From Thermodesulfovibrionales bacterium (lineage in GTDB: Bacteria > Nitrospirota > Thermodesulfovibrionia > Thermodesulfovibrionales > SM23-35): a stretch of 49,799 nt of DNA. Shown one piece after another: positions 14,206 to 49,073 of the stretch (its first letter is position 1; every line of letters begins with the position of its first letter). A program made the translations under genes and the position numbers. The stretch is from positions 1 through 49,799 of the forward strand of contig JASEEX010000005.1 of the NCBI GenBank assembly GCA_030019415.1. Direction: 5' to 3'. The notes beneath the pieces were generated by a model. That model made no database searches and was not told the DNA's origin. It was given only the letters and a program-made list of their open reading frames with translations.

Positions 14206-15102
14206 GTGATAGAGGTAGTGAGAAAAGAAGAGCAGATCTCAATCAACAGGGCATGTAGGATACTTGGACTTCCAAGGACAGAGTATTACCGGAAGGTCTA
14301 CGGACTCAGGGACTATCAGAAGAAAGACAAGGCTCTAAGGGAGATAGAACCTGAGAAGAAACAGGCCATTGAGAGACTTTCTCTTACAGAGCAGGAATAC
14401 GGGCACAAGAAGATATGGGCGTTGCTGAAATTCAGGCACAACATAGAGATAACGAAATACGAGACATACAAGGCGATGAAAGCGATTGGGCTGCTTTTAC
14501 CCTGCAATTACACAAAAGGACTCAAGGAGCAGATGGAAGCCAGAAGGCAGTACCTGCATAAACCTGAAGGGATAAACCAACTCTGGCAGGTAGACTTCAC
14601 AGAGTTTCAGATACCGGAATACGGAACATACTATTCAACGAATGTACTGGATTACTTCTCAAGATACGTCCTTGCATGTTTGATAAGGGCAAGCCATACA
14701 GCAGATGACCTTATTGATGCCATTGAGATGGCAAAAAGGGAAGCACAGAGCATATTAGGAGAAGATTGTTTCCCTGAGAAAGTGCTTTTGGTCAGTGATC
14801 AGGGACCAGCAATGAAGTCTAAGACCTTCAGGAGATACACACAGGGTTCCATATTCAGGCATGTGCTGGCAAGAGGACATCATCCGCAAACCATAGGGAT
14901 GCTTGAGCGGTTCAATCAGAGTCAGAAATACGAAAGGATCTATCGGAGGGAGTATACAGACCCTATTGATGCAGAGATTGATTTGGAAGCCTACAGGATA
15001 AAATACAATACCTATAGGCCGCATGAGGCGCTGGGATATAATGTCCCGGCTAATTATTATAAACTTGAAAACCTGGTGGGACTAACTTTAAACTCGAAAT
15101 AG
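14206..15102 (+). CDS. IS3-family transposase OrfB (DDE integrase)
   Basis: This 298-residue rve-type catalytic subunit has an HTH_21 region (YGHKKIWALLKFRHNIEITK) followed by the DDE core. The first Asp is in WQVDFTEF, the second in LLVSDQGPAM, and the Glu in GMLERFNQSQK, with the terminal YRPHEALGY signature. The frame is open upstream through the OrfA slippery site at 14170-14176, so the functional protein is probably an OrfAB fusion and the GTG at 14206 is nominal. All catalytic residues are present, so the element may still be active. Confidence 0.9.
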   Translation: MIEVVRKEEQISINRACRILGLPRTEYYRKVYGLRDYQKKDKALREIEPEKKQAIERLSLTEQEYGHKKIWALLKFRHNIEITKYETYKAMKAIGLLLPCNYTKGLKEQMEARRQYLHKPEGINQLWQVDFTEFQIPEYGTYYSTNVLDYFSRYVLACLIRASHTADDLIDAIEMAKREAQSILGEDCFPEKVLLVSDQGPAMKSKTFRRYTQGSIFRHVLARGHHPQTIGMLERFNQSQKYERIYRREYTDPIDAEIDLEAYRIKYNTYRPHEALGYNVPANYYKLENLVGLTLNSK

Positions 15103-15112
15103 TTGTTCCAAA

Positions 15113-15295
15113 AATGTCGAGCAGAACAGTAGCGCCCAAATATTTTATTTCTTTTTCCAAATCCTCTGCGTCTTTATTACTTTTCAAAAAATTAAAGCTT
15201 ATACTCGCACCTTCCCTGGCTAATTCAATAGCGATAGCCCGCCCTATCCCCCTCGTAGCGCCACTAATGATAACTGTCTTATTTTTAAGTGACAT
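15113..15295 (-). pseudogene. SDR-family oxidoreductase (FabG-like), truncated by IS3
   Basis: On the minus strand from the ATG at 15295 the sequence reads MSLKNKTVIISGATRGIGRAIA..., the TGxxxGIG cofactor motif of short-chain dehydrogenases. It then gives AIELAREGASISFNFLKS and AEDLEKEIKYLGA. The SDR similarity stops around 15113, where IS3-type DNA begins; the catalytic Ser-Tyr-Lys part is missing. The same frame is open upstream (to 15367), so the ATG at 15295 is a choice based on where SDR similarity begins. No matching 3' half was found on the other side of the IS, so a deletion may have accompanied the insertion. Confidence 0.7.
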
Positions 15296-15423
15296 TTCTG
15301 GTATAAGCCTTCTCAATCCTAATCTACCATAACCAAAAAATCCCTTTAAATCAAGTATTTTCTGCAATCTCCCTATCCCCTGGGGTAAGGGATTGATGTG
15401 AGGGAAATCGGAGATGCTTCCGT

Positions 15424-17151
15424 TTATGCCGAGGTGCTTTTTCTCTTTAATGTCTTTACAAGAGAATCATAGCTCATTGTGTTCAGGATATCTCCCTTCT
15501 CAAGCCAACCCTTTCTTGCAATCGAGACCCCATAGGCCATATAGTCGAAATGGCTAATTAAATGAGCGTCTGTGCCTATTACCAGTGGTATTCCCATCTC
15601 CTTTGCCATCCTTGCATGTACATCATTTAGATCAAGTCTGAGGGGGTATGCATTTATCTCGATAGCCGTTCCTGTTTCTTTAGCCATCTTAAGAATCTCA
15701 TTCATGTCAACATCATAGGCATCCCTCTCTCCAATCAATCTGCCTGTTGGGTGGGCGATAATAGAGACATAAGGGTTCCTCATTGCAGATACCAGTCTTT
15801 TTGTCAGTTGCTCTCTATTCTGCCTGAAACCTGAGTGGATTGAGGCGACAACGACATCCATCATTTTCAGCACATCATCAGGAAGATCCATACGTCCGTC
15901 ATTCCTTATATCTACCTCGATACCTGCAATCAGCCTGAACCCCTTTAATCTTTTATTCATTGAATCTATCTCCTTCTTCTGCCCTAACAGCCTTTCTGCA
16001 GTAAGTCCCCTCGCAATACCGAGACCCTTTGAGTGGTCTGTAATGGCTATGTACTCATACCCTCTCTCCCGGGCCTCTTCTATCAGCTCCTCGAAATCAT
16101 GGCTTCCATCGCTCCATTTACTGTGGACATGGAGATCGCCTTTTATATCCTTGAGCTCAACGAGCCTCGGCAGCCTTCCAGCCAGTGCAGCCTCTATCTC
16201 GCCTGTGTCCTCCCTCAGTTCTGGAGGTATATAGGGAAGACCTAAAATCCTGTATATATCCTTTTCTTCTTTCCCACCAACCTTCTTGTCATCCTTTTCC
16301 CTGAATATACCGTATTCATTTATCTTGAGGCCTGATTTCATAGCCATTTCTCTCAATCTTATGTTGTGGGCCTTGCTGCCCGTAAAGTATGCCAGCGCAG
16401 CACCAAAGCTATCCTCCTCAACAACACGCAGATCAACCTGAAGTCTCTCACGGATTATTACACTTGATTTTGTGGGTCCCTGCATAAGGACATCCTTAAC
16501 ATGAGGCAGGTGAACGAAGGCACTCATAACAGCCTTTGGATCCTGCGATGTGGCAAGTATGTCTATGTCCTTTATCGTATCCTTCCACCTCCTTATACTT
16601 CCTGCGATGCTCAGCTTTTTAACAGGGGCTTTCCTTCTCAGGTGCTCGAGAATATCATTGGCAACAGGAAAAACCTTTCCGAGGGGCTGTCTTTCCATCC
16701 CCCGTTTCAGCATCTCAATCCCTTTGAGTATATTTTCCTCCGTCTTTTCCTTTATCCCTGGCAGGCCACTAAGCTTGTGTTCCCTGGCAAGCTGTTCAAG
16801 GGTTTCTATATCTCTTACATTTAATCTCTCAAAAAGAAGCTTTGCCGTTTTTGGGCCAAGACTTGGTACAGAAAGAAGCATGCTGAGACCTTCAGGCACC
16901 TCCTTCTTGAGGTCTTCATAAAACTGAAGCTTCCCTGTCTTGACATATTCTTCTATCTTGCCTGCGAGATCCTGTCCAATTCCAGGGACTTTCATAAGTT
17001 CATCCCTTGGTGTTTCCGCAACATCCCTCGTAAGCCCCTCTATATTCTGTGCTGCACGTCTGTAAGCCCTTATCCTGAAGGGATTCTCGCCCTTTATCTC
17101 AAGCAGGTCAGCTATGTCATTAAAAATCCTCGCAATCTCCTGATTCTTCAT
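15424..17151 (-). CDS. polX: DNA polymerase/3'-5' exonuclease PolX
   Basis: The 575 residues match bacterial family X polymerases in length and order. There is an N-terminal 8-kDa-like HhH region (IRAYRRAAQNIEGL, VPGIGQDLAGKI, VPSLGPKTAKLL, LPGIKEKTEENI). A nucleotidyltransferase palm follows with GSIRRWKDTIKDIDILA (metal Asp pair) and LQVDLRVV. The C-terminal PHP domain has DLHVHSKWSDG, ITDHSKGL, IEVDI, AHPTGR and GTDAH metal ligands, which give the 3'-5' exonuclease. It is a single-copy base-excision-repair/gap-filling enzyme and a housekeeping gene unrelated to its neighbours. All key metal ligands appear present. Confidence 0.93.
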   Translation of the reverse strand: MKNQEIARIFNDIADLLEIKGENPFRIRAYRRAAQNIEGLTRDVAETPRDELMKVPGIGQDLAGKIEEYVKTGKLQFYEDLKKEVPEGLSMLLSVPSLGPKTAKLLFERLNVRDIETLEQLAREHKLSGLPGIKEKTEENILKGIEMLKRGMERQPLGKVFPVANDILEHLRRKAPVKKLSIAGSIRRWKDTIKDIDILATSQDPKAVMSAFVHLPHVKDVLMQGPTKSSVIIRERLQVDLRVVEEDSFGAALAYFTGSKAHNIRLREMAMKSGLKINEYGIFREKDDKKVGGKEEKDIYRILGLPYIPPELREDTGEIEAALAGRLPRLVELKDIKGDLHVHSKWSDGSHDFEELIEEARERGYEYIAITDHSKGLGIARGLTAERLLGQKKEIDSMNKRLKGFRLIAGIEVDIRNDGRMDLPDDVLKMMDVVVASIHSGFRQNREQLTKRLVSAMRNPYVSIIAHPTGRLIGERDAYDVDMNEILKMAKETGTAIEINAYPLRLDLNDVHARMAKEMGIPLVIGTDAHLISHFDYMAYGVSIARKGWLEKGDILNTMSYDSLVKTLKRKSTSA

Positions 17152-17225
17152 AAGAAAAGTATAACAAAAACGAGGGGATATTCTTAATCACTACTTTTAT
17201 TACTCTTGATGATAGGCTTTTGCAA

Positions 17226-18158
17226 AGGGGTCAGGTCTTGAATCTTGACATTTAACTTTTAAAGATGATATAAGCATTCTGTGGCAAGGCCATTGAGGAT
17301 AGAATATGACGGAGCTATATATCATGTAACATCGCGGGGAAATGCGAGGGAGCATATATATAAGGATGGGGAAGATCGAAAGATATTTCTTAACATTCTG
17401 GAAAGAGTGATCAAAAGATACAACTGGCTCTGTCATGCCTACTGTCTGATGAACAATCACTACCACTCGGTCATCGAGACCCTGGATGGGAACCTTTCTA
17501 AAGGGATGAGACAGTTAAACGGAGTATACACACAACTTTTCAACAAGAGGCATCACAGGGTTGGGCATGTATTTCAGGGCAGGTATAAAGCGATACTCAT
17601 TCAGAAGGAGAGCCATCTTCTTGAGGTTTGTAGGTATGTAGTATTGAACCCTATAAGGGCAAAGGTAGTAAAAAGCCTTGAGGGGTGGAAGTGGAGCAGT
17701 TACCGTGCTACTGCTGGCATAGAAAAGCCTCAATCCTGTCTTACAACAGACTGGATATTGGGGCAATTTGGTACCAAGGCAGGTTTAGCAAGACAGAGAT
17801 ACAGGAAATTTGTAAAAGCCGGTATAGCAGAAGAACCGATATGGGCAAAAGTCAAAGGTCAGATTTTACTTGGTGGGGATGAATTTATTAAAGGATTTAT
17901 TAGTTATTTGAGAGGGCGAGAAGATATAAAAGAGGTTCCTAAGAGCCAGAGATATATCAGCAGGCCAAGCCTTGATAGTATGTTTACGGGGAAAGTGTTA
18001 AAAGATAAACATATAAGAGATAAGAAGATAGTAGAGGTGGTATATAGATATGGGTATACTCAGAAGGAGGTTGCTGATTATCTTAAGATGCACTATTCAA
18101 CAATAAGCAGACTGATAAAAGAAAATGAAATAATATCAAAATACAAGACCTGACCCCT
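17226..18158 (+). mobile_element. REP/RAYT-type element bounded by a perfect 15-bp inverted repeat
   Basis: The Y1-type transposase gene is flanked by AGGGGTCAGGTCTTG (17226-17240) and its exact reverse complement CAAGACCTGACCCCT (18144-18158). The right copy overlaps the gene's stop region. These outer repeats delimit a 933-bp unit. Terminal GGTCAGG repeats are common beside such transposases and are the probable recognition sequences. Confidence 0.7.
17281..18153 (+). CDS. REP-associated tyrosine transposase (Y1/HUH) with C-terminal HTH
   Basis: This 290-residue protein has the IS200-like Y1 fold typical of RAYTs. It starts ARPLRIEYDGAIYHVTSRGN, carries the HUH-type motif NNHYH in YCLMNNHYHSVIET, then GHVFQGRYKAIL and the CRYVVLNPIRAKVV helix region with the catalytic Tyr. 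The last ~80 residues (KIVEVVYRYGYTQKEVADYLKMHYSTISRLI) form a DnaA-like/HTH_38-like DNA-binding domain. The start is GTG at 17281. It cuts single-stranded DNA at hairpins; the inverted repeat around it is the likely target. The gene looks intact. Confidence 0.88.
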   Translation: MARPLRIEYDGAIYHVTSRGNAREHIYKDGEDRKIFLNILERVIKRYNWLCHAYCLMNNHYHSVIETLDGNLSKGMRQLNGVYTQLFNKRHHRVGHVFQGRYKAILIQKESHLLEVCRYVVLNPIRAKVVKSLEGWKWSSYRATAGIEKPQSCLTTDWILGQFGTKAGLARQRYRKFVKAGIAEEPIWAKVKGQILLGGDEFIKGFISYLRGREDIKEVPKSQRYISRPSLDSMFTGKVLKDKHIRDKKIVEVVYRYGYTQKEVADYLKMHYSTISRLIKENEIISKYKT

Positions 18159-20020: not shown

Positions 20021-22123
20021 CTAACTTTTAAGTGCTTCCTCAAAATGCCTCCTTGAAATCCTGAGTTTTGTGCTCTGTGCTTTGTCTTCTGTCCTCTGAC
20101 TTAAAAATTCCCTTATCGCCAGCATAGAAGCCCTCCTTGAGATAGCCTCTATATCTGAACCCGCCAGGCCCTGGGTGGTTTTAGCCAGAGCTTCGAGATC
20201 GACATCCTCGGCTAAGGGTTTCCCCTTAGTATGAATCTTAAAAATCTCCAACCTTATCTTTTCATCAGGGATGGGCAGTTCCAGTTGAAGGTCGAATCTG
20301 CCGGCTCTAAGCAAGGCCGGGTCGATAATATCAGGTCTATTAGTAGCTGCGAGCACCACTACTCCTTTAAGCTCCTCTATCCCATCGAGTTCAGTAAGGA
20401 GCTGGCTGATGACCCGCTCGGTGACATGGGAATCAGCACTTGCCCCACGGACAGGGGCAATGGCATCTATTTCATCAAAGAAGATAATGCAAGGGCTGGC
20501 TTGTTTGGCCTTCTTAAATACCTCCCTTATGCCTTTCTCTGATTCTCCTACCCATTTCGAGAGCAAAGCCGGGCCTTTAACCGAGATAAAATTCACCCCG
20601 CTCTCATTAGCTACTGCTTTAGCAAGCAAGGTCTTCCCTGTGCCAGGAGCCCCGGTAAGGAGGATTCCTTTAGGAGGATTGGTATTAGCATGCCTGAATA
20701 GATCTTGATACTTGAGAGGCCACATAATGGTCTCCATAAGCACGCTTTTTGCATCTTCAAGACCACCTACATCGCTCCATTTTACATTGGGGATCTCAGT
20801 AAAAACCTCTCTTATCGCCGAGGGTTCAACTTCCTTTAATGCCTCCATGAAATCATCCATAGTTACTTCCAACTCAAGGAGCAGCTCATAGGGGATATAG
20901 TCGGCCTCGAACTCGATCTTGGGCATGATCTTTCTCAGAGTTATCATCGCTGCCTCCCTCGCTAATGCTTCTAAATCAGCTCCAACAAAACCATGGGTAA
21001 TCTCAGCAAGTTTTTCAAGGTCAACATCAGAGGCTAAAGGCATCCCCCTTGTGTGAATCTGAAGTATCTCCAGCCTTCCGTTCTTATCAGGGATACTTAT
21101 CGAAATCTCCCGGTCAAATCTGCCCGGCCTTCTTAAAGCAGGATCGAGCACATTAGGTATATTGGTAGCTCCGATAACGACCACTTGTCCCCTCGATTTT
21201 AGGCCGTCCATTAGGGCCAGAAGCTGAGCTACAACCCTTCTTTCTACCTGCTGATCGCCTCTGACATCCTCTCTTTTAGAAGCTATGGCATCGATCTCAT
21301 CCATAAAAATTATCGCCGGGGCATTTTCACTTGCATTCTCGAAGATGGCCCTTAGATGCGCCTCCGATTCTCCATAAAACTTATGAATGACCTCAGGTCC
21401 AGTTATATGGAAAAAGTTTGCAACTGTCTCATTGGCCACTGCCCTGGCAATCAGGGTTTTGCCGCAACCCGGAGGACCATGCAAGAGGACACCTTTGGGG
21501 GCCTCTATTCCTAATCTCTCAAAGACCTCAGGGTATTTTAAAGGAAGCTCGATCATCTCCCTTATCCTTTGAATCTCTCGACGTAGCCCCCCAATATCCT
21601 CATAGGTAACCCCGACCCCTTCTTTTTCCGTAGTCTTTTCCCCTTTTATTTTTATGGTAGTGGTAGGTTGGATCACTACAATTCCTTTTGGGCTGGTATC
21701 GAGCACAGAGAATTCCTGGTAGCGGGTACCAAAGAGGGTAACCCTTACCTTATCTCCCGAGGTTACTGCTAACCCATCAAGTAACCTCCCGATATACTTT
21801 GTATCTCCTTCCTTAACGGTTCCTCGAGAGGTTATAGGGGCCATGACCACAATATGGGCGGCTGTATAGTCTATCTTTTGAATCTCTGCCTTTTCCCCTA
21901 AGCTGATCTGGGCGTTTTCTCGAGTAATGCCGTCTATCTGGATGATATCCTTGTCTCTATCCTCCATATAGGCAGGCATAAGCTTGGCTGGGGTTGCCCT
22001 CTTGCCCGTTATCCGGATAATGTCTCCTACCTCGGCCCCAATCCTCGCCATATCTTTGGGGTCAATTCTGGCTATTCCTCTGCCTACATCCTTGGGTAGG
22101 GCTTCTTTTACTTTTAGTGTCAT
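20021..22123 (-). CDS. Cdc48/VAT-type AAA ATPase (two AAA modules)
   Basis: About 700 residues follow the Cdc48/p97/VAT plan. The N-domain begins [20 protein letters not shown] and ends near residue 170. D1 has HGPPGCGKT (Walker A, ~222-229), [11 protein letters not shown] (Walker B) and [11 protein letters not shown]2 has TGAPGTGKT (~497), [12 protein letters not shown], and RAGRFD arginine-finger segments. It unfolds proteins or pulls subunits from complexes and membranes. Such full-length proteins are common in archaea and patchy in bacteria. The ATG at 22123 was preferred (MTLKVKEAL) because an AGGA lies just upstream; 22141 is the alternative. As the last large gene of the gas vesicle array, it may remodel or clear shell subunits. 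Confidence 0.92.
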
Positions 22124-22194
22124 AATAAATCCTAAATTCAAAATCCTAAATCCTAAACAAATTCAAATGTACAAAATAAAGGCTCATCACATAT

Positions 22195-23172: not shown

Positions 23173-24078
23173 TCAGGTTCTGTCATCAGCATTTAACCTT
23201 TTTGGGATTAATTTCTGCAATCTGACTTCCAGTATATTATTATGGTATCTCTTCATAATCTCTTCGCTCTCAACCTTTGCTGGAAGAGAAATCTCCTCAT
23301 AGTAGTTAGCCTCGGGGGTCTTACAAGAGACTATAAGTTTATCTGCATCAACTCCTAATAATATATCCTCGATTTTCGCACCTTTTAATTCCATAATGAT
23401 ATTTAGATGATCTCCTTCATCAAAGATATCTAATAGCGATTCCTTCCGATCTACTTTTGCGCCGAAGGCGGATAATTTATCGCCTCCAATAATCCACCAG
23501 CTAAACATAACCTTCTTTCCAGTAGGTTCATCAATTTTAGACCTTTCAAATACTAAAACTGGGAAACCTATCAGCTTCTGACTTGTGGGGTTAATAATAT
23601 TTCTTATGCGATGAAGGACATCCATATGATTTACTGCATTATAAGTCTGAGCCAATTCATTAATACTAGCGTGCCTATTTTGCCAGACAAAGAGAAGTAT
23701 ATTTTGGCTCTCAGGGTCCAGCTCTTTAATAATCTTATCTATTTTCTCCTGATTTATTTCTAATAGGCTCCTTTCAAATATCCTATTTTTCCAGGTCTCT
23801 ACATCTTTTACCATAATCCAGGCCTTTGAACTTTCTCCATAGGAAATACAGAGTGCATCTTTACTCCTTAAGATAAAGCCCCTTTGTTGGACACTGATTT
23901 CTTTTATATTTTCCACGAGTGTCTGGAATATAATCCTCGTCGGCTGCCAGAGAAAAAGTCTTTCGTTAGTCAGATATAAATGCCCTGGCTTCCAGCCGCT
24001 GCGCAGATTATCTTTATAAAAACCTGGGTTGGTTAGGATAACTTCTTCATTCGCTTTTAACTCAGGCTTATTTTTCAT
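23173..24078 (-). CDS. GRAM-like domain fused to Hsp20 (alpha-crystallin) domain
   Basis: The ~301-residue protein has an N-terminal GRAM/PH-like domain (residues ~8-105). It contains ANEEVILTNPGFY, W-KPGHLYLTNERLFLW and a following strand-rich region ending before a helical middle (KIDKIIKELDPESQNILLFVWQNRHA, resembling a winged-helix turn). The C-terminal ~100 residues resemble the Hsp20 proteins of this array: LLDIFDEGDHLNIIMELKGAKIEDI, and a final YHNNILEVRLQKL. GRAM domains usually bind lipids or proteins. I know of no standard gas vesicle protein with this layout. The ATG at 24078 follows the upstream TAA by one base. Confidence 0.65.
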   Translation of the reverse strand: MKNKPELKANEEVILTNPGFYKDNLRSGWKPGHLYLTNERLFLWQPTRIIFQTLVENIKEISVQQRGFILRSKDALCISYGESSKAWIMVKDVETWKNRIFERSLLEINQEKIDKIIKELDPESQNILLFVWQNRHASINELAQTYNAVNHMDVLHRIRNIINPTSQKLIGFPVLVFERSKIDEPTGKKVMFSWWIIGGDKLSAFGAKVDRKESLLDIFDEGDHLNIIMELKGAKIEDILLGVDADKLIVSCKTPEANYYEEISLPAKVESEEIMKRYHNNILEVRLQKLIPKRLNADDRT

Positions 24079-24079
24079 C

Positions 24080-24448
24080 TTAGTAATCAATAATCACTTT
24101 TTTAAATGACTTGCCAGAGACTTTTGTGTCATTCTCAGATTGTGATTTATCTTTCTTTCTATAGTATTTATAAGTAAAACCTGGATGTCTGGCTCCACCA
24201 GGTTTACCCCGCCCCTGCGCGCAGGGGCGGGGTTTATTATCTTCATATTCTCTCCGTCTAAATTTTGCCATTTCATCAAATTCTTTCCCTGTAGAATGGA
24301 CTACCTGGCCATCTTCACCGGTTGAGTATTTAACTGGGTATATTCTTCTCTTTTTTAGCAATTCATCCCAATCCATAGCTGTTGAATGTCTCACTCTTGT
24401 CCCACGGCCAGTGGAATATCCCGAAGCTTTAGTTGTCTTGGATTTCAT
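24080..24448 (-). CDS. Small protein with two STG/HST repeats and a palindromic insertion
   Basis: The 122-residue, Lys/Arg-rich protein is not recognised. It contains two copies of a ~24-residue unit: YSTG-x6-V-x-HSTAMDWDELLKKRR (residues 11-35) and YSTG-x6-V-HSTGKEFDEMAKFRR (41-65). Residues ~72-85 (KPRPCAQGRGKPGG) are encoded by a GC-rich perfect palindrome at 24206-24233, inserted in frame. The Ser-Thr-Gly/His-Ser-Thr repeats might be phosphorylation or binding motifs, but nothing shows this. It sits between the TPR/hydrolase-like gene (13 bases upstream) and the GRAM-Hsp20 gene. Confidence 0.6.
   Translation of the reverse strand: MKSKTTKASGYSTGRGTRVRHSTAMDWDELLKKRRIYPVKYSTGEDGQVVHSTGKEFDEMAKFRRREYEDNKPRPCAQGRGKPGGARHPGFTYKYYRKKDKSQSENDTKVSGKSFKKVIIDY
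24206..24233. repeat. GC-rich palindrome inserted in frame in a coding sequence
   Basis: ACCCCGCCCCTGC and GCAGGGGCGGGGT form a 13-bp perfect stem with a 2-base loop inside the small repeat protein. A related but tandem version lies in the first ArsA gene at 28891-28980. Confidence 0.75.
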
Positions 24449-29299: not shown

Positions 29300-29785
29300 T
29301 TAGTACTCCCACTTTTGGGTTTGCCACTTCTTTGCACTTCTTCCACTTTTTCCCAGGCGACCCATCTTCTCCTGAAGGGTAGTTAATCTAGCAGGCCCAC
29401 GGTTATGAATTACCAACCAGCAGCCATGATTTGGTCCGACTACTTTAATCTCCACTCGATAGTTGGGTTGTAATTTTGTTTCCTCCAGCAGATCATTGTT
29501 TAAGGTAAGTCTTCCGTTTTCGTCTATACCGCCTTGACATTCCATCATCGTAACTTCTAACTGTGAAAGGCGAGGATCATTTTGGGGATGATAAACCCCG
29601 TTAGAAATTGAAGATTTTCTAACGGGGTAAACAATCAAATAAGGCCAGCGACTGCTGTCTTTAATCCTAACTACTTTAATTCCAACTTGACTTCCGAGAT
29701 TTAATCCTGCTTCCCTTAAAATATTTGAAGGGATAGACAATTTACCCTCTTGGTCAATTTCACTAAATCCTTTTAACAGCGGCAT
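29300..29785 (-). CDS. Double SpoVT/AbrB-like swapped-hairpin protein
   Basis: The 161-residue protein contains two AbrB-type half-domains. Residues 1-55 have [25 protein letters not shown]...VGIKVV; residues ~84-133 have GGIDENGRLTLNNDLLEETKLQPNYRVEIKVVGPNHG. Between them an in-frame palindromic element (29594-29630) encodes YPVRKSSISNGVYHP. Each half resembles the 56-residue protein at 47456-47626, so this is a duplicated version. AbrB folds usually bind DNA as dimers and control stationary-phase genes; a single chain with two halves could self-pair. It overlaps the end of dnaK by 23 bases, so it may regulate or accompany the chaperone. Confidence 0.7.
   Translation of the reverse strand: MPLLKGFSEIDQEGKLSIPSNILREAGLNLGSQVGIKVVRIKDSSRWPYLIVYPVRKSSISNGVYHPQNDPRLSQLEVTMMECQGGIDENGRLTLNNDLLEETKLQPNYRVEIKVVGPNHGCWLVIHNRGPARLTTLQEKMGRLGKSGRSAKKWQTQKWEY
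29594..29630. repeat. Palindromic element inserted in frame (NPVRKSS type, short copy)
   Basis: ACCCCGTTAGAAA (29595-29607) and TTTCTAACGGGGT (29616-29628) are perfect 13-bp inverted arms with an 8-base centre. They match the element in the radical SAM gene at 26467-26513 but have a shorter loop. It is read in frame as PVRKSSISNGV inside the AbrB-like protein. Confidence 0.85.
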
Positions 29786-31529
29786 ATTTTGTCTCCATCT
29801 CTAAATTCATCTTTTTTCGCTTGAACGCATTATAAACAACCTCAACCAACTTCCTTAATTCATCAATTTTTACCCTCATTTCTTTATAGTTACCTTTGGA
29901 TAGAGCGGTTTTGATCGCTAAGGTCAATTTCTCCACTTTTTCTACATCGTTCTCATCTATTAAAGTTCCGCCTTCCTCTAAGACAACCTGGGCTGCTTGG
30001 ATCATGCTTTCTGCCCGAATACCCATCTGAATCTCTTCCTTACGCTTTTGGTCCTCTTCAGCATGGATGCGAGCATCTTCGAGCATCTTGTTAATCTCAT
30101 CCTTAGACAAGCGGTAAGAAGAACTAATCTGAATACTTTTTTCATTATCGGTGTGGATGTCTAAAGCCTTTACCTGTAAGATTCCGTTGGCATCTGTATG
30201 AAATGTTACCTCAATCTGGGCTTCGCCTCTTGGACCAGGTGGAATATCGGTAAGCTCAAACTTACCCAAACTTATATTATCAGAACTCAAGAGTCTTTCT
30301 CCTTGCAGGACATGGATATCAACCTGAGTCTGGTTATCTCTAGCGGTAGTAAATATCTGGCTTTTGGATGTAGGAATGGTGGTATTCCTTTCAATAATCT
30401 TAGCAAATATTCCTCCTTCAGTCTCGATTCCTAAAGAGAGTGGAATAACATCTAACAACACCGCATCTTTTATTTCCCCAATCAAGATATTGGCTTGAAT
30501 TGCCGCGCCAAGCGCTACTACCTCGTCCGGGTTGATATCCTTATATGGTTCTTTGCCCAAAAGCTGGCGAGCTAAACGCTGCACAGCAGGCATTCTGGTA
30601 GAACCTCCTACTAAAACTACCCTATCTATTTGTTTAGGTGTAAGCTTTGCATCAGCGAGGGCCTGTTTAGTGGGTTCTATCATCTTCTCTAATAAATCCC
30701 GGGTTAATTCTTCAAACTGTTCCCTGCTCAATGTCAGCCGCAAATCTTCTTTTTCCCAAAGAAATGGGATTCTAATGTCTGTAAATGTTTTTGTGGAAAG
30801 TTCCTTTTTTGCCTTCTCTGAAACCTCTTTCAACCGCTGTAAGGCCATCCTATCTTTCCTTATGTCAACACCATGCAACTTCTTAAAATTCTCAGCTGAA
30901 TAATCCATTATTATCTGGTCCCAGTCATCTCCGCCAAGATGTGTATTGCCGCCCACTGCCCTCACCTCAAATACGCCATTGCCCAATTCTAAAATGGATA
31001 CATCAAAAGTTCCTCCACCTAAATCCCAGATTAAAACATAGTGGACATCTTGCTTATGTAAGCCATAGGCCAGGGCAGCAGCAGTAGGTTCATTTATAAT
31101 CCGCATTACTTCTAAGCCGGCTAAGGCACCTGCCTCCATAGTCGCCTGGCGCTGATTGTCATTAAAATACGCAGGGACTGTAATTACTGCTTTCTCTATC
31201 TTCTCACCTAAATAATCTTGCGCATCTTCCTTAACCTTGCGAAGGATTAAGCTGGAAATCTCTTGCGGGGTAAATCTTCTCCCGTCAATCTCTACTTTAT
31301 AATCAGTGCCCATCCGGCGTTTAATAGAACTGATGGTGCGCTCTGGATTGGCAACTGCCTGGGTTCTGGCAAGACTGCCTATCAGTTGCCTTCCACCTTC
31401 GGCAAAGGCAACTATTGAAGGAGTAAGTCTTCCACCTTCAACATTGGGTATAATCTCAGGTCTCCCATTGTTCATAAAGGCGGCTAATGAAAAAGTAGTG
31501 CCTAAATCTATTCCTATTACTTTACTCAT
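29763..31529 (-). CDS. dnaK: Hsp70 chaperone DnaK
   Basis: The 588 residues include a complete nucleotide-binding domain. It has [53 protein letters not shown] and the linker region [19 protein letters not shown]. The substrate-binding beta domain ([31 protein letters not shown]) and a shortened helical lid follow. It is a little shorter than typical DnaK (~610-640) and lacks the usual acidic tail. The neighbours are AbrB-like and GvpJ-like genes, with no grpE or dnaJ operon, so this is likely a dedicated copy. It would fold or hold shell proteins with the J-domain fused to GvpF at 41.1 kb as its co-chaperone. Confidence 0.93.
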
Positions 31530-31604
31530 CGTTCGTCGCTACGCTCCTCACTTTTGGTAATTGGTAATTGGTTAAATGGTTAAATAATTACCAGTTATTC
31601 AGCT
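31530..31604. repeat. Spacer: GTCGCTACGCTCC element plus TTAACC-type repeat
   Basis: Upstream of dnaK the spacer has GTCGCTACGCTCC (31535-31547) followed by GGTAATTGGTAATTGGTTAAA and GGTTAAATAATTACC (31555-31597). On the minus strand the first piece gives GGAG before the start codon (14-base spacing). Both parts recur before other genes of the array. Confidence 0.6.
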
Positions 31605-32692
31605 GATAAAGCTACTTTGGTTATTTTCTTTTTTAGCCTGTGGCTGACCCAGCCACAGTTTGGGCAACCCTTTTCTAATAGTTCTAAAACAATTGCCTTC
31701 TTTCCGCATTGAGGGCAGGCTTCTATTCTTTCTCTGAATGAGATGATTCGGGCAAGTACCCTTTCCCATTCGAACATCCCATCCCCTGAAAAAGAGGCAA
31801 CCTTTCTTTCCGTAGTATCTTCATATATCACATCAAAAATCCTTTTCTTCTTTAATACCGGGCTTAAATTCCTCACCTCTATAGTAGAACCTAATATCTT
31901 TTCTGTAGGAACTTCGAAAGCCAATCTTTTTTCAAAATCACACCACCAGCATAGCCTCTTATTTGTTATATAGAGATGGCCCGGTTTCCAGGTCTCTTGT
32001 TGAATACCGGAAGCAGGAACTAAATACCATACCTTTTCCCCTCGGTGAGTAACCTCTTCTCCTTCTGTCAGGAAGTCAATTGGTCCCTCTTCAAACTCTG
32101 GAAGCACAGGGCTCTCCTCTAAAGAAAGCCCCGTAGTTTCTAAATTTTGCTCAATAGCATCTTTTAACTGGTTTGTTTCTACTGCGCTAAGCCGATGCAC
32201 TTGATCCTGTTTATCCATAAGATAAAGTACCTGTTTTTTCTTTTCTTTAACAAAATGCGCCTCCTCTCGCATTACCAATGCTTTTATTTCTTCTAATGGT
32301 ATCTGAAATGTGATTTCATCAAAATCTTGGCGGTAAAGAATAAGCCTTTTGTTAGTCAAATAAAAATAGCCTGGTCTCCAGGCATTATATATCCCTTTGC
32401 TGTAATAATAAGAGCCATGCATTTTCAGGGTAATCTCTTCTCCTTCAACTAAAGAAGGGGTATTTTTCTTCCAATGCTCTCTCTCCCAGGCCCGTATTTT
32501 CTCATCCCATGCCTTCATCATCCCATACTTGAGCATAGTCTCCATGCCAGCCAGGGCGGCTCTTAAATTGACGCCGATTAAAGGGATGCCGGCCACAGAG
32601 ATGATAATGTCAGCATTGATTACCAATCCTTTATCTAAGATTCGATCTAACAGATCTACTAAGGTTGCATGTGTATTTCTGGATGGTTCCAT
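31595..32692 (-). CDS. GvpA/GvpJ-family protein fused to two GRAM-like domains and a zinc ribbon
   Basis: The 365-residue protein starts with a GvpA/J shell domain (residues ~8-60: ATLVDLLDRILDKGLVINADIIISVAGIPLIGV...AALAGMETMLKYG). A helical linker is followed by two GRAM/PH-like domains. One is at ~80-185 (LVEGEEITLKMHG, AWRPGYFYLTNKRLILY), the other at ~207-320 (LTEGEEVTHRG, TWKPGHLYITNKRLCWW). The end is a zinc ribbon, CPQCGKKAIVLELLEKGCPNC. Ordinary GvpJ proteins are ~100-150 residues. The layout suggests a minor shell protein carrying an adapter that could bind lipid or partners. It starts at an ATG preceded by GGAGCGAAGCGACAG, a repeat that supplies the ribosome site. I know of no described homologue with this architecture. 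Confidence 0.8.
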   Translation of the reverse strand: MEPSRNTHATLVDLLDRILDKGLVINADIIISVAGIPLIGVNLRAALAGMETMLKYGMMKAWDEKIRAWEREHWKKNTPSLVEGEEITLKMHGSYYYSKGIYNAWRPGYFYLTNKRLILYRQDFDEITFQIPLEEIKALVMREEAHFVKEKKKQVLYLMDKQDQVHRLSAVETNQLKDAIEQNLETTGLSLEESPVLPEFEEGPIDFLTEGEEVTHRGEKVWYLVPASGIQQETWKPGHLYITNKRLCWWCDFEKRLAFEVPTEKILGSTIEVRNLSPVLKKKRIFDVIYEDTTERKVASFSGDGMFEWERVLARIISFRERIEACPQCGKKAIVLELLEKGCPNCGWVSHRLKKKITKVALSAE

Positions 32693-32707
32693 CTGTCGCT
32701 TCGCTCC
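32693..32707 (-). promoter_or_regulatory. Repeat-derived ribosome binding site (GGAGCGAAGCGACAG)
   Basis: Immediately before the ATG of the GvpJ-GRAM gene the minus strand reads GGAGCGAAGCGACAG. An almost identical GGAGCGTAGCGACAG precedes gvpK at 34027-34041. GGAG lies 11 bases before each ATG and is the only candidate ribosome site. Confidence 0.55.
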
Positions 32708-32825: not shown

Positions 32826-32855
32826 TTACTCATTCGCCTTTAGACGAATGAGTAA
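32826..32855. repeat. Perfect hairpin spanning the GvpF/L stop codon
   Basis: TTACTCATTCG (32826-32836) and CGAATGAGTAA (32845-32855) form an 11-bp stem with an 8-base loop across the end of the GvpF/L-type gene. The terminal residues and the TAA are inside the hairpin. No U tract follows, so intrinsic termination is doubtful; mRNA 3'-end protection is possible. Confidence 0.6.
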
Positions 32856-33649
32856 GGTGGCCAGGGACCGGTAAATCGAATGATTAAACCATCTTCTTTT
32901 TTAATCTCTTCTAAAACATTGCCAAGTTTTTCGACATTTTCATTGGCAACCAAACAAGATAAGTTCATAATCATCTGCAAGTTCTCATCCACCTTTTTAG
33001 TCTTCTCTATACGAATATCAAAAACTTCTTTTTTTATCCGGGTATAAAAGTCCTTAAAATATTCATCGGCCTTTTTCTCCATCTCTTTCCTTAATACATT
33101 CTTTATCTTTTCTTCATACATATAAGCTGTGCCCGGTGGTTTTGATTTTAACTCCTCTTTCAAATTCTTAATCTCTGTGGTATTTTGGGCTATTCTTTCA
33201 ACTATAACCTTAGGACTCCATAAGACCTGAACTCCATATTCTGCTTTGCCTTTAACTTTATTTAATTTTTCTTTTAGATTCTGGTAATCTTTTTGTAGCC
33301 ACTTTCTCATGTTTTCTTTTGGGTCTATATCCTCTTCTCCTATAATTATGGTATCAAAAGCTAATGGCAACACAGCGCCGAACTTTTGCCAGGCACAATC
33401 TACTACATTTTGGTGAGTCATTACCCAATTCTTTACTATATCTCTATCTTTTGATTCGTAGGGGCGAGATTCACAGTTATGAACAATAGCTGAAATTTCC
33501 TGGTATGGAAGAGCGTAGACCTCACTGCCATCAATTCCAATCTCACCAAAATTTACCTTTTCATTGCCATCTGCTATGCAGTAAAGATATATTGCCTCTC
33601 TTTTTAATTCTCGATTCTCGATTCTCGATTCTTGATTTGCATTATTCAT
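32840..33649 (-). CDS. gvpF/L: Gas vesicle protein GvpF/GvpL family (copy 1)
   Basis: The 269 residues have the GvpF/L landmarks. The N-terminal strand is AIYLYCIADGNEK, then FGEIGIDGSEVYALPYQEISAIVHNC. The middle has WVMTHQNVVDCAWQKFGAVLPLAFDTII, followed by a helical region with YGVQVLWSPK, and the C-terminal end is GLIIRFTGPWPPYSFV. GvpF/L proteins are minor structural/assembly factors that contact GvpA. The N-terminal ~16 residues (NNANQESRIENRELKRE) come from a short tandem repeat (ATTCTCG, 33605-33634). It is the most diverged of the four copies and lies just downstream of gvpK. Confidence 0.9.
   Translation of the reverse strand: MNNANQESRIENRELKREAIYLYCIADGNEKVNFGEIGIDGSEVYALPYQEISAIVHNCESRPYESKDRDIVKNWVMTHQNVVDCAWQKFGAVLPLAFDTIIIGEEDIDPKENMRKWLQKDYQNLKEKLNKVKGKAEYGVQVLWSPKVIVERIAQNTTEIKNLKEELKSKPPGTAYMYEEKIKNVLRKEMEKKADEYFKDFYTRIKKEVFDIRIEKTKKVDENLQMIMNLSCLVANENVEKLGNVLEEIKKEDGLIIRFTGPWPPYSFV
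33605..33634. repeat. ATTCTCG short tandem repeat at gene start
   Basis: The sequence repeats ATTCTCGATTCTCGATTC and then degenerates, inside the first codons of the GvpF/L-type gene. It encodes QESRIENRE. A comparable CATCGAG/CATCCAG repeat lies just outside the gene (33682-33704). Confidence 0.5.
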
Positions 33650-33702: not shown

Positions 33703-34026
33703 CTAAATTCTCGCCTTTTCTGCTTCTTCTTCCCATCTCGTAGGATTGACTATTTTATCTATAACATCATTAACTATATTATCCAAACCATCTCTTACTG
33801 ATTGAACCGCTTCTCCAACTCCCTGTTCCTCTTTTATATGCTCTATCGCAACGTCAAGTTCCTTAAGCGCCCTGCCCAGGCGCTCTATCTCTTCTTCGTT
33901 TAAGCTTCCGCCCTCCATCCGCCTCACTGCCTGCAGCTTCAATGCATCCCTGATTATCTCAACCAAGGCAAGCACAAGACCTAAAACCCCACTTTTAAGA
34001 TTATCTTCATTGATATCTATAGGCAT
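33703..34026 (-). CDS. gvpK: Gas vesicle protein GvpK
   Basis: The 107 residues match GvpK in length and pattern. It has INEDNLKSGVLGLVLALVEIIRDALKLQAVRRMEGGSLNEEEIERLGRALKELDVAIEHIKEEQGV (the conserved core, listed here in pieces: NLKSGVLGLVLALVEIIRD, ALKLQAVRRMEGG, LGRALKELDVAIE). GvpK is required for vesicle formation in several organisms and is thought to act in assembly. The C-terminal tail (DNIVNDVIDKIVNP) is slightly longer than usual. It sits between GvpH and GvpF/L genes and starts at an ATG with the GGAGCGTAGCGACAG repeat as its ribosome site. Confidence 0.93.
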   Translation of the reverse strand: MPIDINEDNLKSGVLGLVLALVEIIRDALKLQAVRRMEGGSLNEEEIERLGRALKELDVAIEHIKEEQGVGEAVQSVRDGLDNIVNDVIDKIVNPTRWEEEAEKARI

Positions 34027-34145
34027 CTGTCGCTACGCTCCATATTGGTTAAATAAAAACCATTTAACTATTTAACTCATGAGTACCGAATTCTCTTTTA
34101 ACATAACTCGGTACTCTCAAGTATTTAACCTTTTAACCATTTAAC
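34027..34145. repeat. Spacer: GTCGCTACGCTCC element, TTAACC repeats and a GAGTACCGA hairpin
   Basis: Between gvpH and gvpK lie the CTGTCGCTACGCTCC element (34027-34041), then GGTTAAAT and ACCATTTAACTATTTAAC. A hairpin of GAGTACCGA (34081-34089) and TCGGTACTC (34108-34116) follows, then TTAACCTTTTAACCATTTAAC. No gene is present. Confidence 0.65.
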
Positions 34146-34767
34146 TTTTCTCTATTTTAACTTCCAGAATTCCGTTTTTATACGCCTTCTCTAATTTCCC
34201 TTTAGGTTCACAGGGGAGTTTCAACTCTTGATGATACTTACAGTCAGGAATATCTACAGATATGGTAAGTTTATCTCCTTGCAAATTAAGATTTATATCC
34301 TTCTCTTCAACCCCGGGTATCTCAGCAATCACTTTAATATGGTCTTTCTCATCAAAGATATCTGGTAGCCTTTCCTCTGGCTTAGGTGGAGGGCTTTTGG
34401 GTTTTTCTGCCGGTGGTCTTTCTTTGACAAAATATCTCTTTGCTGGCCTACCTCGCACACCCGGGGGTATACCTATAGAGATGCCTCGGTCTTCTTCAGC
34501 TCTTCTTAAAGGAGCTTCTCTTATCTTACGTTCTACCTCCTTCTCAATCTGTCCTAATTTTTCTTTAAATGCTGGAGACCTCATCACTCCCTTAAGTAGA
34601 CCCTCCAGACCCGGGATCATTCCCCCAACTCCCTTAAGGATTCCCTCTACTATGCCTTCAGACTCCTCTTCTTTTCCTTCAGCTTTTGCTTCTTTAAGTT
34701 TTCTTATCTCTTCTTTAAGTTTTCTTATCTCTTCCTCTTTTTCATTCTCTTTCTTACCCATTTTCAC
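34141..34767 (-). CDS. gvpH: GvpH-type Hsp20 protein
   Basis: The 208 residues have a highly charged N-terminal coiled coil (residues 1-45, EEEIRKLKEEIRKLKEAKAEG), the gas-vesicle-specific stretch EGIVEGILKGVGGMIPGLEGLL, a Pro-rich linker, and a C-terminal alpha-crystallin domain. The last includes LPDIFDEKDHIKVIAEIPGVEEKDI, LNLQGDKLTISV and YKNGILEVKIEK. GvpH proteins resemble small heat-shock proteins and are thought to chaperone GvpA or other shell components. It is located between the GvpA/J-zinc-ribbon gene and gvpK, which is a typical place in gvp clusters. It is closely related in its C-terminus to the proteins at 22.2 and 23.2 kb. Confidence 0.85.
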   Translation of the reverse strand: MKMGKKENEKEEEIRKLKEEIRKLKEAKAEGKEEESEGIVEGILKGVGGMIPGLEGLLKGVMRSPAFKEKLGQIEKEVERKIREAPLRRAEEDRGISIGIPPGVRGRPAKRYFVKERPPAEKPKSPPPKPEERLPDIFDEKDHIKVIAEIPGVEEKDINLNLQGDKLTISVDIPDCKYHQELKLPCEPKGKLEKAYKNGILEVKIEKS

Positions 34768-34806: not shown

Positions 34807-35157
34807 TCATTCTGCCTTTATCCCCTTTGCCCTTGCACTTATCCAACCGCACCAGGGACATCCTTCATCGAGTAATTCTTCTGTTGGGACTTTTTTCCCG
34901 CATTGTGGACATTCTTCTTTACCCTTCAACGCCTCTTTCCAGGCTGCTGTTTCAACATCAGTGCCAGATGGAAATTCGAGGCCATACTTTGCTGCTGTCT
35001 CAAAAGAAGCTAACGCTGCCCTTATCTTAATTCCCAAAAGCTCAACCCCGGCAACAGATATAGCGATATCGGCATTTATCACTAAGCCCTTATCCAAGAC
35101 CCGATCTATAACATCAACTAAAGTAGCACTTGTCTCTCTTGTCGCCTCTATTGCCAT
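34807..35157 (-). CDS. gvpJ: GvpA/GvpJ-family shell protein with C-terminal zinc ribbon
   Basis: These 116 residues have a GvpA-superfamily core (residues ~10-60: SATLVDVIDRVLDKGLVINADIAISVAGVELLGIKIRAALASFETAAKYG). In true GvpA the middle is normally DAWARVSLVGIE and the helix ends in YLxYAE, so NADIAISVAG fits GvpJ/M types better. After a short linker it ends with a four-Cys zinc ribbon, C83-x2-C86 and C100-x2-C103 (CPQCGKKVPTEELLDEGCPWC). The same ribbon closes the GvpJ-GRAM protein at 31.6 kb. It is a probable shell or edge component with a cytoplasm-exposed binding knob. It starts at an ATG with GGAGATAATAGAA upstream. Confidence 0.85.
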   Translation of the reverse strand: MAIEATRETSATLVDVIDRVLDKGLVINADIAISVAGVELLGIKIRAALASFETAAKYGLEFPSGTDVETAAWKEALKGKEECPQCGKKVPTEELLDEGCPWCGWISARAKGIKAE

Positions 35158-35162
35158 TTCTA

Positions 35163-35558
35163 TTATCTCCTTACCACAACTCCCTGGCCTTTACATTTGG
35201 GGCAAGGCACAGGATAAGGTTTGCGCGGATATACCCCTGTTGCATTGCATATGGGACACTCATTAGAAGGCTCTATCTTTGTAACTACCCCTTTGCCACC
35301 GCAGGCCAAACAATGTATGCGGCTGGTGGTATATGGCTCTATTCCTCTACCATTACAAAAATTGCATTTCATTGTGGGGCCGCTAACCTTCACCTTACCT
35401 TTTCCTAAACACACCTGACAATCAGAAAGTTTGGATAAAAGCTGAAAGGGATCTTTCCCTGTTCCATTGCAAAAGGCACATATAACTTCCACCTTGTCTT
35501 TCTCTATCCTTTTAAGTTCCTCAGGCGCTATAGTAGCCCATCTTGGTTTTCTGGCCAT
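35163..35558 (-). CDS. DnaJ-type zinc-finger protein without J-domain
   Basis: The 131 residues contain repeated CxxCxGxG-like pairs: CAFCNGTG, CQVCLGKG, CNFCNGRG, CLACGGKG, CPICNATG and CPKCKGQG. This is the zinc-finger region of DnaJ, extended to six elements, with no J-domain or C-terminal substrate domains. Such proteins can act as holdases or disulfide/zinc-linked cochaperones. The array contains two more, at 46.1 and 48.8 kb, all with matching KDPF...LLS...CQVCLGKG or related order. It sits just upstream of the GvpJ-zinc-ribbon gene, which suggests a partner role in handling that protein. Confidence 0.8.
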   Translation of the reverse strand: MARKPRWATIAPEELKRIEKDKVEVICAFCNGTGKDPFQLLSKLSDCQVCLGKGKVKVSGPTMKCNFCNGRGIEPYTTSRIHCLACGGKGVVTKIEPSNECPICNATGVYPRKPYPVPCPKCKGQGVVVRR

Positions 35559-41079: not shown

Positions 41080-41114
41080 TTAACCATTTAACCTTTTAAC
41101 CATTTAACCAACTA
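41080..41114. repeat. TTAACC-type spacer repeat
   Basis: TTTAACC occurs four times in about 35 bases (ATTTAACC, TTTTAACC, ATTTAACC, AACTAAGG). It separates the GvpF-DnaJ fusion gene from the four-helix-bundle gene. Confidence 0.65.
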
Positions 41115-42131
41115 AGGTCTTATTATCTCAATCACAATAAAATCCTTTTGCCTATTATCCTTGAAATTGATATTTTCTCCCTGATAACAACTGGTTAATA
41201 ACCTATAAGCATAGGTTACTTTTTCAAACTCCTCCTTAAGTTGGCTATTTTCAGGGTGCTTATCAGGGTGATTTCTTTGGGCGAACTCACGATAAGATTC
41301 TTTTATCTCCTCTAAAGATGTACTCTCTCCCAAACCTAACAATCTCTTTGCCTCATCTATCTGGCTATATCCTACCTTTTTCAACTGGCAGGTGGCAAAA
41401 CTGTAAGGAGGTAGAGGCCCTACGCATCTAAAATTCACCTTCTGATTGTATTCTTTATCTAATTCCTTAAGTGCGGTATCGAAATCCGGCTCTTTAACCT
41501 TTTCGAGCAAAAAGGCGCAGTTTAAAATCATCTTATCATCCATCAATTGATGCTTTTGAGAATCAATCGTAAATTTCTTTAGGAAATCTATTATATGAGC
41601 CTCTTCTTTTTCTCTTCTTTTGTCCAGGGCATCCTTAACCATCATTCCTATCTTTATTCTATCCTGGAGAGTTTGGTGGGGAGATCTTTTAGCAATTTCC
41701 GCCTTAAATTTTCTTATTCCTTTATCTACATCTCCTATCTCTTTTATAATGCTATTTAGATCATTATAGGTAGCCGTCACATCGAGTTCTATCTTGCCAT
41801 CCATATTGATGAGTAGCTCTTTAAATTGAGAATAGCCCCTTTTTAGAACCTCTATAACCTCATCATTGGAAGCAAATGTCCCGAACTTCATAGGTATAAT
41901 ACTATGGTCTTGCATAACTTTCTCGATTACTGTCTGGTGTTTCACCAGAAGACGGCCCAGAGTCTCTTTCAGCATAGATGAATAATCTTGAACAGGTGAA
42001 TTACTAACTACGCAAGCGACGTCTTGATGAACTATTGCATAAACTTCTTCATTGGCATTGATTCCGCAGGGGCCAAAAGATTTTTTCTCATTTGTTTTTA
42101 TTATACCGTAAAGATATTTTCCCTCTCCCAC
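41112..42131 (-). CDS. GvpF/GvpL fused to a C-terminal J-domain
   Basis: Residues 1-245 are a GvpF/L protein (KYLYGIIKTNEKKSFGPCGI, VVSNSPVQ, LVKHQTVIEKVMQDHSIIPMKFGTFASN, NCAFLLEKVKEPDFDTAL, VNFRCVGPLPPYSFA). Residues ~255-330 are a J-domain: DEAKRLLGLGESTSLEEIKESYREFAQRNHPDKHPENSQLKEEF (pieces: LGLGESTSLEEIKESYRE, NHPDKHPE, KVTYAYRLL) with the HPD motif intact. A J-domain recruits and stimulates Hsp70, and a DnaK lies at 29.8 kb in the same array. This gives a direct candidate link from the GvpA-contacting factor to the chaperone. The start is GTG at 42131, one base after the stop of a tiny upstream gene. Confidence 0.88.
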   Translation of the reverse strand: MGEGKYLYGIIKTNEKKSFGPCGINANEEVYAIVHQDVACVVSNSPVQDYSSMLKETLGRLLVKHQTVIEKVMQDHSIIPMKFGTFASNDEVIEVLKRGYSQFKELLINMDGKIELDVTATYNDLNSIIKEIGDVDKGIRKFKAEIAKRSPHQTLQDRIKIGMMVKDALDKRREKEEAHIIDFLKKFTIDSQKHQLMDDKMILNCAFLLEKVKEPDFDTALKELDKEYNQKVNFRCVGPLPPYSFATCQLKKVGYSQIDEAKRLLGLGESTSLEEIKESYREFAQRNHPDKHPENSQLKEEFEKVTYAYRLLTSCYQGENINFKDNRQKDFIVIEIIRP

Positions 42132-46074: not shown

Positions 46075-46830
46075 TTAACTTAATGCCTTCTCACCACAAG
46101 GAGTAAGACTATATAAAATACCATCTCTTATGAGAAGTCCTTTTTTGACTAAGGCATTACAGAGTTGTTCTGCATAAGCAGATGAAACAGGAGGTGCCAT
46201 ATTCCTGGCCACCGCAACCCTGTCAGCCCGACTTAATTCTTTAACTACTTCCAATACCTCTCGTTCACTTCCTGATGCTGAGCCGACCGGCACTTCTTTT
46301 ACCTTACTTTTAAATTTCTCTTCAACAAAACTACCAACTTCTTCTAAATAATAAGTTTCTTCCTTTACCCTGTTAGAAACAGTCACAACACCTCTTCCTC
46401 GACAGGTTATGCAGACAAGTTTATTAGTGGGTTCAGCCCCTGTTCCTCGACAATGAGGACATATCTCTACAGGCTCATCCACATGGATAACACCTTTACC
46501 TCTACAGGCGGTGCAGGTAACATTGGTTCTGGGTCGCTCTTCCCCTCTTCCCTTACAATAAGCGCACTTGACTGCAGGGGGTTCAACAGAAACTGTACCT
46601 TTACCTTTGCAGACAGAACATTTTGAACCTCTGGGCTTCTCACCTGTTCCGCTGCAAAATCCACAGGGATATACCTCATCTTCCAAAAGTTCACCTATTT
46701 GATGGCTGCTGTATTGGCCTGCTGGTCCTAATTTAACCGGCTGCCATATCCATTCATCCTTTAATTTCTTTATACCACCTTTCCCAATCTGTATCCTTTT
46801 ATGTGATCTTGAATCCCACTCCCAATCCAT
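46075..46830 (-). CDS. DnaJ-type zinc-finger protein with C-terminal winged helix
   Basis: From the ATG at 46830 (MDWEWDSRSHKRIQIGKGG; AGGAGGTAAG ribosome site), the ~251 residues contain four CxxCxGxG-type elements: CGFCSGTG, CSVCKGKG, CAYCKGRG and CTACRGKG, plus CPHCRGTG and CITCRGRG, so six CxxC pairs in all. The C-terminal ~65 residues form a winged helix (REVLEVVKELSRADRVAVARN...LCNALVKKGLLIRDGILYSLTP) much like the 42.8-kb protein. This joins the two accessory folds of the array in one chain. The in-frame upstream extension to 46908 is repeat sequence. Confidence 0.75.
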   Translation of the reverse strand: MDWEWDSRSHKRIQIGKGGIKKLKDEWIWQPVKLGPAGQYSSHQIGELLEDEVYPCGFCSGTGEKPRGSKCSVCKGKGTVSVEPPAVKCAYCKGRGEERPRTNVTCTACRGKGVIHVDEPVEICPHCRGTGAEPTNKLVCITCRGRGVVTVSNRVKEETYYLEEVGSFVEEKFKSKVKEVPVGSASGSEREVLEVVKELSRADRVAVARNMAPPVSSAYAEQLCNALVKKGLLIRDGILYSLTPCGEKALS

Positions 46831-46858
46831 CTTACCTCCTCGCCCTCGCTCGTCGGCT

Positions 46859-46930
46859 TGGTTAAATAGTAATTGGTAATTGGTTAAATTATTTAGCCAT
46901 TTAACCATTTAACCATTTAACCATTTAACC
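46859..46930. repeat. TTAACC-type spacer repeat with tandem ATTTAACC units
   Basis: After GGTTAAATAGTAATTGG and TAATTGGTTAAATTATTT come four consecutive exact 8-base units CATTTAAC(C) from ~46898 to 46930. It shows clearly that this spacer family grows by short tandem copying. Confidence 0.75.
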
Positions 46931-48764: not shown

Positions 48765-49073
48765 TTATTTAACACCCTTACCTCTACAAGCAAGACAAGG
48801 AAGACCATCTGGAGCCTGGCCACTGCCTTTGCATTCAGAACAAGTCTTTGCGCCTTCTGACACGGTAACTACACCCTTGCCCCCGCATACAGTACATGTA
48901 ATCCTTTTATCAAGGTAAATACCTGTTCCCTTGCAGAAGGCGCATTTTATAGTTGGGGGTGTAACGCTTACTTTACCTTTTCCCAAACAGACCTGGCAGA
49001 TAGACAACGGTGATAAAAGCCCAAAGGGGTCTTTACCTTTGCCTTTACAAAAGGCACATTCTATTACACTCAT
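48765..49073 (-). CDS. DnaJ-type zinc-finger small protein
   Basis: The 102 residues contain six CxxC pairs with Gly-x-Gly: CAFCKGKG, CQVCLGKG, CAFCKGTG, CTVCGGKG, CSECKGSG and CLACRGKG. There is a KDPFGLLSPLS bridge like the one in the 35.2-kb protein. There is no J-domain. It is probably a zinc-binding cochaperone or holdase. The 120-base gap to the gvpN gene (48645-48764) holds no gene and no clear repeat, so a transcript boundary cannot be excluded. Confidence 0.75.
   Translation of the reverse strand: MSVIECAFCKGKGKDPFGLLSPLSICQVCLGKGKVSVTPPTIKCAFCKGTGIYLDKRITCTVCGGKGVVTVSEGAKTCSECKGSGQAPDGLPCLACRGKGVK

Follow-up and report, generated by a model that had tools for sequence, protein, structure and literature searches.

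In Halobacterium, the N-terminal 25 amino acids of GvpM bind GvpL, and a dispensable stretch of 25 C-terminal amino acids binds GvpF, GvpH and GvpL (PMC8716928, PMC7688916). In the same organism, the accessory protein GvpH stops GvpM from aggregating and GvpM acts early (PMC7688916); this early requirement and the binding of GvpL are known for Halobacterium GvpM only. Homologs of GvpA have been proposed as nucleators (PMC9994262) and may be located at the tips of vesicles (PMC11445434).

We analyzed a stretch of 49,799 nucleotides from a Thermodesulfovibrionales bacterium (hereafter the window) in which a gas-vesicle cluster encodes a gvpM-like protein. This protein has in common with Halobacterium salinarum GvpM (about 84 amino acids) a shell-type domain containing the motif METMLKYG, and it is about 51% identical to haloarchaeal GvpM over residues 1-67. 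Haloarchaeal GvpM ends in a short C-terminal tail, whereas the window protein continues into two PH domains and a zinc ribbon.

Identity and layout of the gvpM-like protein

The gvpM-like gene occupies positions 31595-32692 of the minus strand and encodes 365 amino acids, exactly as an earlier note on this DNA had read it. Its parts, all on the same strand, are a GvpM-type shell domain (residues 1-64; 32501-32692), a basic and Trp-rich continuation of helix 2 assigned by a helix model and charge (residues 65-80; 32453-32500), a first PH/GRAM domain supported by Pfam, AF2 and VIA (GRAM1, residues 81-188; 32129-32452), a linker that is acidic by charge and poorly conserved in sequence (residues 189-206; 32075-32128), a second PH/GRAM domain (GRAM2, residues 207-322; 31727-32074) and a predicted zinc ribbon tail with CPQC...CPNC (residues 323-365; 31598-31726). 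Two GRAM signature motifs, WRPGYFYLTNKRL and WKPGHLYITNKRL, are found in this reading frame. The full-length model predicts, with low confidence (pLDDT 52.7), a helix over residues 43-77, and the WD...RAWE of residues 65-80 is also present in the full-length ortholog described below.

The Pfam Gas_vesicle model (PF00741) matches residues 10-48 with an E-value of 4e-17 (62.4 bits against a cut-off of 25), so the shell-type N-terminus claimed by the earlier note holds. The GvpJ label that it attached to this domain does not. Among the NCBIfam models, the shell domain scores 98.4 bits with haloarchaeal GvpM versus 57 bits with GvpJ and 45 bits with GvpA, while a ribbon-bearing paralog in the J slot (34807-35157, minus strand) scores 103 bits with haloarchaeal GvpJ versus 59 bits with GvpM and is the true GvpJ of the cluster. 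GvpM is the top profile for all six of the GRAM-bearing proteins that we found, and GvpJ is the top profile for the ribbon paralogs of both the window and Streptomyces. As the score of 98.4 bits falls below the 109-bit cut-off of halo_gas_GvpM, an exception-type model for haloarchaea, the window protein is not a haloarchaeal GvpM in NCBI's sense, and we therefore refer to it as GvpM-type.

Gene order leads to the same assignment. The window order is gvpJ with its ribbon, an Hsp20-like (GvpH-like) gene (34141-34767; PF00011 just above the cut-off), gvpK (33703-34026; PF05121, E 7.5e-20), a gvpF/L gene in the gvpL slot (32840-33649; PF06386, E 2e-64) and then the adjoining gvpM-like gene, all on the minus strand. 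This order corresponds to J-K-L-M in Halobacterium pNRC200, where gvpM likewise comes after gvpL, and the J-(Hsp20)-K-L-M order also occurs in a Planctomycetota genome (G254) and in a bacterium from the same family as the host (G1103). Together, the profile preference and the position in the M slot correct the label from GvpJ to GvpM-type, and we regard this identity and the fold of the protein as very nearly certain.

Fold of the PH/GRAM domains and the zinc ribbon

Residues 75-158 match Vps36 GLUE (E 1e-7) and GRAM (E 7e-6) above the Pfam cut-offs and PH just below its cut-off. As the full-length AF2 model was too poor (pLDDT 52.7), we folded GRAM1 alone, using an alignment of GRAM1 and three relatives, and obtained a model of seven strands and a C-terminal helix (pLDDT 88.7, pTM 0.82). 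Searches with Foldseek and VIA-align matched this model to PH, GRAM and GLUE structures at VIA Z-scores of 12-14, including the GLUE domain of EAP45 (Z 13.4, 104 aligned residues, 2.7 A), the TAPP1 PH domain (Z 13.3), the MTMR2 GRAM domain (Z 13.1) and yeast Vps36 (Z 12.5), and the nearest solved PDB chain by sequence is the PH domain of BBS5 (E 1e-5). GRAM1 is thus confidently predicted to adopt a PH fold, though a fold match by itself reveals no ligand. Vps36 GLUE, GRAM and BBS5 PH have this fold in common with GRAM1, but Vps36 and BBS5 are eukaryotic membrane-traffic proteins whose architecture is not that of the window protein and whose function is not transferable. The bacterial PH domains of the PHb family (PF08000) are, like the window modules, bacterial members of the PH superfamily and can oligomerise (PMC2817789); PHb is, however, another Pfam family, and it is for this family that ring formation is described.

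On its own, GRAM2 scores under the Pfam cut-offs. A profile built from eight other GRAM sequences, none of them a GRAM2, nevertheless detects it with an E-value of 2.4e-11 (Z=5000) and detects the GRAM2 of the full-length ortholog with an E-value of 1.5e-14, and on this sequence evidence GRAM2 is assigned to the same family as GRAM1. The two GRAM/PH-like domains proposed in the earlier note, along with the PH fold that it proposed to check by structure prediction, are therefore upheld, GRAM1 by Pfam and by the structure matches of the domain modelled alone, and GRAM2 by the independent profile. The invariant columns of the alignment are a generic family signature, so they pin down no binding site.

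The Pfam GRAM model gave only a weak match across the host genome, and our own GRAM profile found three copies there, all inside the gas-vesicle cluster. Across eight genomes carrying gas-vesicle genes, this profile placed GRAM domains of this type in gvp loci only. The second GRAM fusion of the window cluster is a 305-amino-acid protein (23173-24090, minus strand) in which a GRAM domain is followed by a middle region and an Hsp20-like domain.

The cysteines of the tail, C326-x2-C329 and C343-x2-C346, make two CPxC knuckles, in agreement with the zinc ribbon that the earlier note had recognized; all Pfam matches to this region are below cut-off. As this ribbon is closest to that of the J gene in its own cluster (65% identity over 31 amino acids), its similarity weakly suggests, given the shortness of the ribbon, an exchange within the gas-vesicle cluster.

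Relatives of the fusion and its genomic neighbours

The six GRAM-bearing GvpM proteins come from the window, from Streptomyces and from four further genomes (G1204, G254, G198 and G1103). The genome from a Planctomycetota class (G1204, locus L115) encodes a full-length ortholog of 365 amino acids, with 53% identity over residues 1-360 and an identical arrangement of the four parts. In this genome gvpM and gvpJ lie on different contigs, with gvpM beside further ArsA genes; a further GRAM-containing protein of 164 amino acids (L130, 6846-7337) adjoins these ArsA genes and the gvpM ortholog. Identity between the window protein and this ortholog is 77% in the GvpM-type domain, 51% in GRAM1, 43% in GRAM2 and 54% in the ribbon. 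Codon positions diverge unequally in every part, the third most and the second least, which indicates purifying selection over the entire protein, and the GC content of the GRAM and ribbon parts is inside the range of the neighbouring genes.

A plasmid of Streptomyces sp. SGAir0924 (NZ_CP027299.1) encodes a 303-amino-acid RefSeq protein (WP_137962300.1) that is annotated as GvpJ and is GvpM-type by profile. Like the window protein, it has a GvpM-type domain followed by GRAM1, here with a divergent second PH-like stretch (E 0.0026), and its neighbours are a ribbon-type GvpJ, gvpK and gvpF/L; it differs in having no zinc ribbon and in a GRAM1 that scores below the Pfam thresholds. Positions 15001-17594 of this plasmid (L126) hold only ribbon-type GvpJ, GvpM-GRAM, GvpK and GvpF/L together, and no other GvpA-family match was found on the plasmid.

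The remaining relatives are shorter in GRAM content. The GvpM of G254, another Planctomycetota genome, has one GRAM domain and the start of an apparent second, and those of a Nanoarchaeota MAG (G198) and of G1103 have one each. In two further genomes (G199 and G929), a GvpM without GRAM occupies the same place, so the GRAM domain is a lineage-variable addition and not a universal requirement. It may have been gained once or repeatedly, as the shell-domain tree fits both alike. No relative was found on the viral contigs searched.

The earlier note knew of no described gas-vesicle protein with this layout. In the literature covered, with subscription papers outside its scope, we found no paper that pairs gas vesicles with a GRAM domain, and nothing relevant on gas vesicles with a PH domain, pleckstrin or zinc ribbon; the layout is not unique, however, given the Streptomyces RefSeq protein and several MAG proteins. 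We conclude that the architecture is real, conserved and apparently undescribed; it belongs to a known protein family, and its relatives extend to other phyla and to an archaeon.

Chaperones are unusually abundant in the window cluster, which has an Hsp70, a GvpF-J domain protein, several Hsp20 proteins, DnaJ-type Cys-rich proteins, two double ArsA ATPases and a CDC48-like ATPase. ArsA and Hsp20 have already been noted in gvp operons (PMC2963123). The Hsp70 gene (29763-31529, minus strand; PF00012, E 7e-215) adjoins gvpM in the window and in G254, and this neighbour is missing from some loci. The GRAM-Hsp20 fusion has an ortholog in G1204, such that both full-length gvpM orthologs are accompanied by this fusion (n=2 genomes). 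No GRAM-Hsp20 was found in searches of five whole cluster-bearing genomes (G198, G199, G254, G589 and G606) or on the G1103 cluster contig, and the comparable Hsp20 proteins of three archaeal loci (L084, L085 and L099) have no GRAM. In the GRAM tree, GRAM1, GRAM2 and Hsp20-GRAM each pair the window with G1204, with supports (81/80, 94/92 and 84/91, respectively) below the tool's strong threshold.

Several other minus-strand genes of the window belong to this chaperone set. A GvpF/L fused to a DnaJ J-domain is encoded at 41112-42131, in a cluster with its own Hsp70. Three Cys-rich proteins (35163-35558, 46075-46908 and 48765-49073) carry CxxCxGxG-type repeats of the DnaJ kind, called by Pfam for the first and by sequence and similarity for the other two. 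A CDC48-like double AAA ATPase lies near the gvp genes (20021-22141) and is also found on the gvp contigs of G199, G254, G1103 and G1204.

Possible roles of the PH/GRAM modules

The reading that we favor, with a probability of roughly 45%, is that the window protein is a GvpM-type factor of assembly or nucleation whose external PH modules dock proteins, such as chaperones, or oligomerise. By analogy with Halobacterium GvpM, it would act early in gas-vesicle assembly; its shell domain would become part of the nucleus or tip and bind GvpL, and its C-terminus would remain in the cytosol. The short, dispensable docking tail of GvpM would here have been enlarged into PH modules and a ribbon. As docking or oligomerising handles, the PH modules might hold GvpM at the nucleation site and recruit to this aggregation-prone protein the chaperones of the cluster, namely the Hsp20 proteins (including the GRAM-Hsp20 fusion), Hsp70, the J-domain GvpF and the ArsA ATPases. 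The counterparts of GvpH in the window are Hsp20-like, and bacterial PH structures form rings, have no lipid site and have been argued to bind proteins (PMC2817789).

A folded, soluble C-terminal module of GvpM, present in bacteria as well as in an archaeon, provides a handle on vesicle nucleation and on the role of GvpM. The PH module could be expressed alone as a bait for partners or lipids, and the Streptomyces copy is available from a named, sequenced strain. That GvpM tolerates large natural C-terminal fusions may also be useful for engineering.

Lipid binding is common among GRAM and PH domains, and ArsA belongs to the Get3-like ATPase family. The PH modules might accordingly attach to the cell membrane on its inner side and set the site of vesicle nucleation there, a reading that fits the structural closeness of GRAM1 to the lipid-binding MTMR2 GRAM, TAPP1 PH and Vps36 GLUE domains, the basic helix at residues 65-80 and the ArsA genes in the cluster. 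However, neither any GRAM1 nor the window GRAM2 contains the canonical K-Xn-[KR]-X-R lipid motif of strands 1-2, and the single regex match, in the GRAM2 of G1204, does not fall within the conserved signature. With a pI of 5.9 and a net charge of -2, GRAM1 is slightly acidic, and GRAM2 is near neutral (net charge about +1), the fold alone shows no ligand, and the lack of a lipid site in bacterial PH structures also speaks against anchoring. We consider membrane anchoring by the PH modules unlikely.

It is similarly doubtful that the PH domains act with no specific partner, keeping a hydrophobic GvpM soluble or sterically capping the tip. The tendency of GvpM to aggregate (PMC7688916) is in favor of such a role, as are the differences among relatives in the presence and number of GRAM domains, the restriction of invariant residues to the fold signature and the poor conservation of the linker. 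A plain tag would, however, need less than the 43-53% identity maintained under purifying selection, and the pairing of the window with G1204 in three GRAM lineages also argues against a simple spacer, albeit at supports below the strong threshold.

Somewhat less probable still, the tandem PH modules, by themselves or on the membrane, might assemble into a ring or patch that sets the start site and diameter of the bicone, a dedicated nucleation platform built from GvpM. Lastly, an assembly or annotation chimera, in which coding sequence for GRAM and ribbon parts was joined to an unrelated gvp gene, might be suspected from the MAG origin of the sequence and the few close relatives given by an initial scan, but we reject it with next to no reservation, since the full-length G1204 ortholog and shorter GRAM-bearing relatives occur in unrelated assemblies, the GC content is in range and the third-position excess indicates purifying selection in all domains.

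The same leader sequence, GGAGCGWAGCGAC, immediately precedes three start codons on the minus strand, those of hsp70 (leader at 31532-31547), gvpM (leader at 32692-32707) and gvpK (leader at 34026-34041), with 3 matches versus 0.01 expected; it may be a shared translation initiation mark or a small repeat.
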